From NCBI GenBank assembly GCA_027492035.1, contig JAOZFT010000004.1, positions 62,001-126,000 on the forward strand: 64,000 nt of DNA. Reading direction: 5' to 3'. Source of the stretch: Thermoproteota archaeon (GTDB taxonomy: Archaea > Korarchaeota > JAOZGF01 > JAOZFZ01). Below the pieces are notes generated by a model. It saw only the letters and a list, made by a program, of their open reading frames with translations. It was not told the origin of the DNA and searched no databases. Position numbers and translations under genes: made by a program. This document shows, in pieces, positions 57,294 to 59,443 of the stretch. Every line of letters starts with the position of its first letter. Positions within the stretch are counted from its first letter, which is position 1.

Positions 57294-57327
57294 CTTCTCT
57301 CCTTTTTTTTAAAAAAAAAGGGAGAGT
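57294..57327 (+). repeat. Inverted repeat in the rps30e leader
   Basis: CTCTCC followed by eight T, then nine A and GGGAGAG, able to fold as a 14-pair hairpin with one bulged base. It lies in the transcribed leader if the 57229 TATA box is used. It could act as an attenuator, a processing site or merely a homopolymer-driven repeat. Confidence 0.45.
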
Positions 57328-57393
57328 GAATGAAAAAGAGTAAAGGGTGAGAAGACTTTCTGCAGGTTAAAATTTTGAGGAGGTGATACTTTT

Positions 57394-57575
57394 ATGCCAA
57401 GAGGCAGCCACAGGTTTTAACCGGCTAGGGCAGCTTGGCAAAGGCAGGAAAGGTTAGAAAAGCTACTCCTAAGGTTGAAGGGAAAAAGAGACGCAGTCCC
57501 CCAGCTAGGGTAAGAAATAAAAGAAATTACATTAAGAGGGTGTTATTGAAAAGAAAAATTGGTCAACCTAAGTAG
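57394..57575 (+). CDS. rps30e: Ribosomal protein S30e, interrupted by a 17-base candidate intron (join 57394-57411, 57429-57575)
   Basis: Small-subunit ribosomal protein, 54 residues once 17 bases are removed. Without removal the ATG frame reads six residues plus RF and stops at TAA. The rest, GSLAKAGKVRKATPKVEGKK...RRSPPARVRNKRNYIKR, ending KIGQPK, is unmistakable S30e but sits in another frame behind an in-frame TAG. Joining gives MPRGSHGSLAKAGKVRK, and the HGSLxKAGKVR core is the conserved S30e start. The ATG has the best ribosome-binding site in the area (GAGGAGGTGAT). The interruption is flanked by a bulge-helix-bulge fold. nop5 follows about 40 bases later. Confidence 0.85.
57412..57428 (+). 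other. Candidate 17-base bulge-helix-bulge intron in rps30e
   Basis: Sequence AGGTTTTAACCGGCTAG. Pairing: outer helix 57396-57401/57434-57439 (6 pairs), tandem G-A mismatch, 57404-57405/57430-57431; central 4-pair helix 57406-57409 (AGCC)/57423-57426 (GGCT); inner helix 57413-57415/57420-57422. The two 3-base bulges, ACA (57410-57412) and AGG (57427-57429), lie on opposite strands across exactly 4 pairs, the canonical splicing-endonuclease substrate. Cutting after the second base of each bulge removes exactly these 17 bases and restores the S30e frame. Confidence 0.8.
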
Positions 57576-57615: not shown

Positions 57616-58788
57616 ATGAAAGCTTACCTAACTGTTTCACCATTGGGAGTGTTAGCAGTAAATGAAAAAAAGGAAATAATTCTAGTTAAGAAATTAAAGG
57701 GGGATATAAACCAAGTAACGGACAAATTTATCTCTTTTTTAGAAAAAAGGACACTTACAGAACTCAATAACGCCTTAGAAGAATTACTAGATATGGGATA
57801 CCGAGAAATAAACATTGAAGAGAGGGAACCTGTAAAGGTAAAGGAAGAAATTAAGGGAGTCATAAAATATAGTATACCAAATAAAGCTGGTTTATTGTTT
57901 AGAAGATATTTCACGGCTTTATCAGTTGAAAAATTTGGTTTCAGAAACAAAAAGGAAGCAAGAAGACGCATTCGTGAAGTAAGTATAAGGGTTACGGTTT
58001 ATGGAATAAAGAAGGATAGATCCAGAAAGGATTTATCGATCATTCAAGCCATACATGTATTAGATGACTTGGAAAAAATGCTTAACTCCCTCTTTTTGAG
58101 GATAAAGGAATGGTACTCACTATACTTTCCTGAACTGTTTGATATATTAGAGTCTCAAGAATTAATAATCAAACTAATTTCCAAATTTAAGAAACCAGAA
58201 AAGATTAACCCACAAACCCTTAAGGAAGAATTTAATTTGCCATCAGAGATTATAAATAAAATAGCGAGTTCCATTAATGAAACTGTTGGGGCGAAGTTGC
58301 AAGAGAGAGACAGTGAGGTTATAGAGGAATTGATTCAGGAGTGGCTTTCTTTAAAAAAGTGCTATGATGCAGTGAGGGGCTACATAGAAGAGGAAATGCC
58401 GAAAGTAGCACCAAACACTTCTTCACTTACAGGGGCATTAATAGCTGCCCGGCTTATTTCGTCAGCAGGAGGGCTGGAATCACTTGCTAAATTACCCTCA
58501 AGCACTATCCAGTTATTAGGAGCTGAAAAAGCTTTATTCAGGTTTATAAGAGGAAAAGGTACACCCCCAAAACATGGAGTTATTTACCAATACCCTTTAA
58601 TAAGGAAGTCAAACAAGAAAGTAAGAGGGAAGCTAGCTCGTAAACTTGCTAACAAGATAGCCATTGCAGCTAGAATTGACATGTTTTCAGGGGGCAGAGG
58701 TGAAGGCAAGCTTCAAGAAAAATTTGTGAGAGAAATCAAAAATATTGTTAAGGAAGAAAGGAATGAAAGTAATAAACAGCAAATTTGA
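57616..58788 (+). CDS. nop5: C/D-box RNP scaffold Nop5 (Nop56/58)
   Basis: 390 residues. Scaffold that holds fibrillarin and L7Ae on C/D-box guide RNAs for rRNA and tRNA 2'-O-methylation. N-terminal fibrillarin-binding domain, a coiled coil (about 130-260), then the Nop domain with VAPNTSSLTGALIAARLISSAGGLESLAKLPSSTIQLLGAEKALFRF and KHGVIYQYPLIRKS. The C-terminus ends soon after the Nop domain with a basic tail. ATG preferred over a TTG two codons upstream. It overlaps flpA by 26 bases. Confidence 0.95.
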   Translation: MKAYLTVSPLGVLAVNEKKEIILVKKLKGDINQVTDKFISFLEKRTLTELNNALEELLDMGYREINIEEREPVKVKEEIKGVIKYSIPNKAGLLFRRYFTALSVEKFGFRNKKEARRRIREVSIRVTVYGIKKDRSRKDLSIIQAIHVLDDLEKMLNSLFLRIKEWYSLYFPELFDILESQELIIKLISKFKKPEKINPQTLKEEFNLPSEIINKIASSINETVGAKLQERDSEVIEELIQEWLSLKKCYDAVRGYIEEEMPKVAPNTSSLTGALIAARLISSAGGLESLAKLPSSTIQLLGAEKALFRFIRGKGTPPKHGVIYQYPLIRKSNKKVRGKLARKLANKIAIAARIDMFSGGRGEGKLQEKFVREIKNIVKEERNESNKQQI

Positions 58789-59443
58789 GGGAATTTACTG
58801 GTTAAAAAAAGGTAAGAGAAAGTTCTTAGTAACAAAAAATTTAGTGCCTGGATTTAGAAGCTGTAATGAAGAAATAGTTTATGTAAATGGTCGAGAGTAT
58901 AGAGTATGGGACCCTTACAGGTCAAAAGCTTCTGCAGCGATACATAAAAAGGTAAAAGAGTTTCCTGTGAAGGAGGGGGACCTAATACTCTACCTTGGAG
59001 TAGCTTCTGGTACCACAGCGTCTTATTTAAGTGACATTATTGGTGAAGAGGGAGTCATCTATGGAGTTGATTTCTCAGCTTCAGCTTTATTACCATTAAT
59101 CCAAATTGCAAGGAAAAGGGAAAATATTGTTCCTTTACTCGCAGATGCAAGAACTCCTTCACGGTATATTAACTTCGTCGAAGAAGTTGATGTGGTGTAC
59201 TGCGACGTTGCGCAACCTAACCCTACTAGTATTGTGTCGACTAATTCAAATCTTTTTTTGAAAGAGTCAGGTTATGTACTGCTTGCTATAAAAGCCAGCA
59301 GCATCGATATTTCAAAAAAACCTAAAGAAGTGTACCTAGAAGAAGAGAAGAAGCTGAAAGAGACGGGTTTTGAAATAATTGACTCAGTGAATTTAGTGCC
59401 TTACCATAAGAAACATGCTTTCCTTCTCTTGAAAAGGAAGTAA
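58763..59443 (+). CDS. flpA: Fibrillarin-like rRNA 2'-O-methyltransferase
   Basis: 226 residues. Methyltransferase of the C/D-box RNP. Visible motifs: YRVWDPYRSKASAAI, the SAM-binding LYLGVASGTTASYLSDIIG, VYGVDFSASAL-type GVIYGVDFSASALLPL, and VDVVYCDVAQPNPT. The ATG follows AAGGAAGAAAGG; an earlier ATG-like start six codons upstream is less family-like. It overlaps nop5, its direct partner, and trm1 follows 17 bases later. Confidence 0.95.
   Translation: MKVINSKFEGIYWLKKGKRKFLVTKNLVPGFRSCNEEIVYVNGREYRVWDPYRSKASAAIHKKVKEFPVKEGDLILYLGVASGTTASYLSDIIGEEGVIYGVDFSASALLPLIQIARKRENIVPLLADARTPSRYINFVEEVDVVYCDVAQPNPTSIVSTNSNLFLKESGYVLLAIKASSIDISKKPKEVYLEEEKKLKETGFEIIDSVNLVPYHKKHAFLLLKRK

Follow-up and report, generated by a model that had tools for sequence, protein, structure and literature searches.

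A pre-mRNA intron in archaeal cbf5 was reportedly described by Watanabe in 2002 for the Sulfolobales and Desulfurococcales. Its occurrence in both orders is documented, and the bulge-helix-bulge (BHB) motifs at its borders are mostly of unconventional form (Yokobori 2009, PMC2738675). A 2016 review restricts the introns of archaeal pre-mRNAs to cbf5 (PMC4810243), and in 2020 cbf5 was named as the sole reported example, in a paper that also describes BHB sites in the 5' UTR of HVO_1309 of Haloferax volcanii and their processing by the splicing endonuclease (PMC7714728). Here we describe 17 bases at 57412-57428 of a 64,000-nt stretch of DNA from an uncultured archaeon (hereafter the window; C9:62001-126000 of the 666-kb contig C9) which interrupt the gene for ribosomal protein S30e, rps30e. 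Fold and protein comparison together make it very probable that these bases are a BHB intron, spliced from the rps30e pre-mRNA by the endonuclease and most simply explained as gained after the split from the order-level relative.

By mechanism the predicted S30e intron belongs with the BHB introns of Archaea, and together with those of cbf5 and alba it forms a small set in the same genome. Like the cbf5 intron it comprises a BHB in a protein-coding transcript, a cut between the second and third bulge residues and borders that fit protein conservation. It is not, however, a member of the cbf5 intron family, as it lies in another gene and at another site and the cbf5 gene of this genome has an intron of its own; moreover its BHB is strict whereas those of cbf5 are mostly unconventional, and so far it is lineage-specific. 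With the BHB introns of archaeal pre-tRNAs, of which this genome has many, it shares motif, size range and presumed enzymes, but its substrate is an mRNA and its fold is formed by exon codons rather than by a tRNA body. HVO_1309 likewise involves splicing endonuclease acting on an mRNA, as predicted for S30e, but there the BHBs lie in the 5' UTR, whereas in rps30e it is the coding sequence that is interrupted and restored. The locus is made up as follows:

57379-57386, + strand: strong Shine-Dalgarno sequence GGAGGTGA, 7 nt 5' of ATG 57394, read from the sequence
57394-57411, + strand: rps30e exon 1, ATGCCAAGAGGCAGCCAC, encoding MPRGSH, an N-terminus as in relatives of the phylum (MPRGSH/MPRGTH)
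57412-57428, + strand: predicted 17-nt BHB intron AGGTTTTAACCGGCTAG, where the unique HGSL-restoring deletion and the BHB cut sites coincide
57429-57575, + strand: rps30e exon 2, GSLAKAGKVRK...GQPK and stop, matching PF04758
57616-58788, + strand: nop5 (Nop56/58-like, PF01798), the conserved 3' neighbour of rps30e, in the same S30e-nop5 order in G002, G003 and G004
58763-59443, + strand: fibrillarin (PF01269), next in the cluster after nop5

The Shine-Dalgarno sequence marks ATG 57394 as the translation start, yet the frame opened there reads MPRGSH-RF-stop. The remainder of S30e (GSLAKAGKVRK...) lies in a different frame, which opens right after TAG 57426-57428 and runs to the stop at 57575; both this TAG and the TAA at 57418-57420 that ends the exon-1 frame are inside the predicted intron. 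The gene retains its ancestral position 5' of nop5 and fibrillarin. A near-perfect inverted repeat (CTCTCC-T8-A9-GGGAGAG, 57297-57326) lies about 70 nt 5' of rps30e, in the interval that separates this gene from the divergent elp3.

The borders of the insert can be defined from the protein alone. When every single deletion of up to 60 nt that links ATG 57394 with the S30e frame was enumerated, just one of the 118 frame-restoring deletions, that of 57412-57428, regained the motif HG[SAT]L. Its product is a 54-residue S30e beginning with MPRGSHGSLAKAGKVRK, and it scores 40 bits against the Pfam S30 model. The initial annotation had held that the gene is out of frame with its well-placed start and that removal of precisely these bases restores it, and on both points our results agree. 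Without splicing, a 46-residue S30e (MAKAGKVRK...) could start at the internal TTG 57435, the segment behind the upstream ATG then being a decayed remnant; this is exactly the reading frame that an ORF finder gives, and its product scores 27 bits, which is the Pfam cut-off. But such a protein would lack HGS, residues that occur in the other S30e proteins whose start could be read, nothing comparable to GGAGGTGA precedes TTG 57435 while a strong Shine-Dalgarno sequence serves ATG 57394, and the supposed remnant has kept a perfect MPRGSH. Since in simulation a matching BHB would in addition arise by chance with a probability below 1e-5, we hold translation from the internal TTG to be very unlikely.

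The BHB itself is evident from RNAfold minimum free energy (MFE) structures, supplemented for the central helix by pair probabilities, and consists of the following elements:

57395-57440, + strand: outer exon-exon helix, with 7 bp (57395-57401/57434-57440), a tandem G-A mismatch and 2 bp (57404-57405/57430-57431)
57406-57426, + strand: central 4-bp helix, 57406-57409 (AGCC) with 57423-57426 (GGCT)
57410-57412, + strand: bulge ACA on the 5' side, with cleavage predicted after 57411
57427-57429, + strand: bulge AGG on the 3' side, with cleavage predicted after 57428
57413-57422, + strand: intronic hairpin, 3 bp (57413-57415/57420-57422) closing a 4-base loop (57416-57419)

In the MFE structure the rps30e insert thus has a strict BHB, with two 3-nt bulges on opposite strands, a 4-bp helix between them and flanking helices. 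Central helix, bulges and inner helix with its loop are as initially annotated; the outer helix, on the other hand, had been taken for a contiguous run of six pairs and is instead composed of 2 pairs, the tandem G-A mismatch and 7 pairs. The BHB is both the MFE and the centroid structure of the 56-nt site 57390-57445 and is retained when the 236-nt message 57340-57575 is folded. The pair probability of the central helix is 0.88-0.91 with flanks of 25-40 nt and 0.61-0.75 with flanks of 60-100 nt. The local fold by itself is only moderately stable (z -2.2); the strength of the S30e case lies in the coincidence of borders: the exon ends defined by the 118-deletion enumeration are identical with the cuts predicted from the fold after the second bulge residue, as had been proposed initially. 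How rarely this would come about by chance was estimated with 200,000 simulated inserts, in which random genomic 17-mers were placed between synonymous S30e exons. The strict motif occurred in 20 and its all-Watson-Crick form in 1 of them, and none combined the strict motif with a matching MFE structure. Part of the start codon lies within the outer helix, in folds of the message before as well as after splicing, so that a regulatory role of this helix is possible.

These data lead us to suggest the following course of events. In the nascent transcript the 17-nt insert folds together with exon 1 and the first bases of exon 2, as in the computed structures, into a strict hBHBh' motif; EndA would then cleave after 57411 and 57428, and RtcB would ligate the exons to an mRNA for the S30e that begins with MPRGSHGSLAKAGKVRK. 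Complete S30e would be produced from the spliced message only, while the unspliced message would yield just the peptide MPRGSHRF.

The structured and frame-disrupting nature of the insert might also be thought to point to translational recoding, that is, to ribosomal bypassing or programmed frameshifting across it. However, the exon-1 frame is ended by TAA 57418 and TAG 57426-57428 stands in the exon-2 frame directly before GGC 57429, so that a single shift cannot connect the two. Bypassing of the T4 gene 60 type finds no matched take-off and landing codons either: no landing codon matches TTT, which directly precedes the stop TAA, and a hop from GGC to GGC would lose SH. Recoding is thus hardly credible. 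Group I and group II introns, whose catalytic cores comprise hundreds of nucleotides, are not to be reconciled with an insert of 17 nt, and there is no Rfam match anywhere in the 64,000-nt window. Nor did comparison of the S30e intron with other sequence of the contig reveal a clear relation beyond shared 10-mers.

The genome (G000; 1.87 Mb, 93% complete) is a draft in 42 contigs, and the 17 bases could accordingly be suspected to be a sequencing or assembly error. A random 17-nt error would not, however, produce a strict BHB at the sole borders that restore HGSL, nor would it recur in like manner in alba and cbf5, and the cbf5 intron is common to relatives at the identical site; an error is in our view most improbable. 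The incompleteness of the assembly would also leave room for a recent pseudogene whose functional counterpart lies in genomic sequence missing from the assembly. When an intact second rps30e was sought, a possibility raised in the initial annotation, the copy described here was the sole S30e match in the whole assembly, 93% complete as it is, at E values up to 10. Exon 2 is moreover fully open and conserved, and the gene is at its ancestral place before nop5. We give the pseudogene explanation next to no weight and keep to a spliced rps30e.

The initial annotation had further called for examination of rps30e in close relatives. In the order-level relative (G002) the syntenic orthologue is uninterrupted, hence intronless, and starts with MPRG(S/T)HG, and the same uninterrupted gene and start are found in the relatives of the phylum in which S30e was located. 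Among 394 genomes surveyed, S30e was above the cut-off in 66, and for about half of these genomes the start was read. The starts read are intact except for that of G343 (L099), which is divergent; in G017 (L031) an automated check of starts found no standard motif, and by eye the start reads MPGTHGSLNKAGYVRELT and is uninterrupted. An insert was seen in none of the S30e starts read. The only same-family genome, G001, was left out of this comparison because its contig ends inside nop5. The uninterrupted gene in the order-level relative and in all other readable starts suggests that the 17-nt intron, lineage-specific so far, was gained locally while the gene order around it was kept, which would most simply have occurred after the split from the order-level relative.

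The host encodes both enzymes expected of a lineage with BHB introns, a splicing endonuclease and the ligase RtcB. Its EndA is a single chain of 375 residues with two endonuclease domains (C9:about 442880-444010; L039, L040), the C-terminal half of which is nearest to crenarchaeal catalytic subunits while the N-terminal half weakly resembles structural subunits. By these sequence similarities EndA may be a beta-alpha fusion whose specificity is relaxed, and on inspection by eye the active-site Tyr, His and Lys are apparently present. Introns were called by ARAGORN in 18 of 29 tRNA loci, the individual calls being taken as given, and the BHB finder gave ambiguous registers at the tRNA loci. All tRNA matches above the cut-off are on the 666-kb contig and none on the other 41 contigs, which might reflect a limit of the search, an unusual replicon organisation or a binning issue.

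A scan for BHBs on both strands of C9 alone, blind to gene identity, took about 89,000 motifs to 44 (33 + 11) with the BHB as MFE fold, which were then filtered for the joining of reading frames. The top three candidates in which both frames are blocked were cbf5, alba and rps30e, all of them conserved genes that are exactly repaired by the deletion. The match in proS (C9:233946-233885) was dismissed as a false positive as its normal frame is intact, and further matches, named by eye as infB-like, kae1/bud32-like, methionine-aminopeptidase-like and others, were set aside for intact frames or natural stops. The introns in the other two genes are the following:

C9:310022-310044 (L115): cbf5 BHB intron of 23 nt at GTL|D, join GHLGTLDPNVTGVLPVALG, from the gene-blind scan
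C9:232046-232011 (L111), minus strand: strict BHB intron of alba, 36 nt with an in-frame stop, at IGR|KPTMNYV, join IYIGRKPTMNYVLATV, from the gene-blind scan

That cbf5, classically interrupted in Crenarchaeota, is split between frames in this genome was found by family search as well. Its GTL|D site is interrupted in at least 10 relatives, some of them outside the phylum and most with BHB-like folds; intron loci are in G085 (L172), G113 (L173), G053 (L171) and in G001, G002, G009, G011, G023, G008, G017 and G024 (L161-L168). With lengths of 13-35 nt, conserved borders and several families, these introns make a usable covariation set. Spliced alba scores 78 bits against Pfam Alba, and the pair probability of its BHB drops to about 0.1 with 100-nt flanks. 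In most relatives alba is uninterrupted. The same-family genome G001, however, has in alba (L219) a 62-nt insert whose BHB-like borders likewise give KPTMNYV, although its modelled fold is less certain. Because this insert lies about 8 nt further 3', it suggests independent gain or sliding. The cbf5 intron is older, and it and the alba intron are presumably processed by the same machinery as that of rps30e.

With at least three predicted introns on one 666-kb contig (rps30e 17, cbf5 23 and alba 36 nt) and a shifted alba site in G001, we think it probable, if with clearly less assurance than for rps30e itself, that minimal BHB introns are actively being acquired by essential protein genes of this lineage, and that archaeal protein-gene introns are recurrently gained beyond cbf5 and missed by annotation. 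The S30e gene illustrates how gene finders miss them, its mechanical call beginning at TTG and losing the conserved N-terminus. In the open-licence literature searched cbf5 was the one archaeal protein gene known to be interrupted by a BHB intron, and we found none in S30e, alba or any ribosomal protein gene, for ribosomal protein genes in keeping with the initial view that no such intron was known. As the search covered open-licence papers, rps30e would provisionally be the first ribosomal protein gene with a BHB intron and is an apparently unreported host gene. If true, the introns in rps30e and alba would mean that the tRNA-splicing machinery processes further essential archaeal messages beyond cbf5 and that recent lineages gain introns of this kind. 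This would widen the known distribution of archaeal protein-gene introns and make their origin directly testable.
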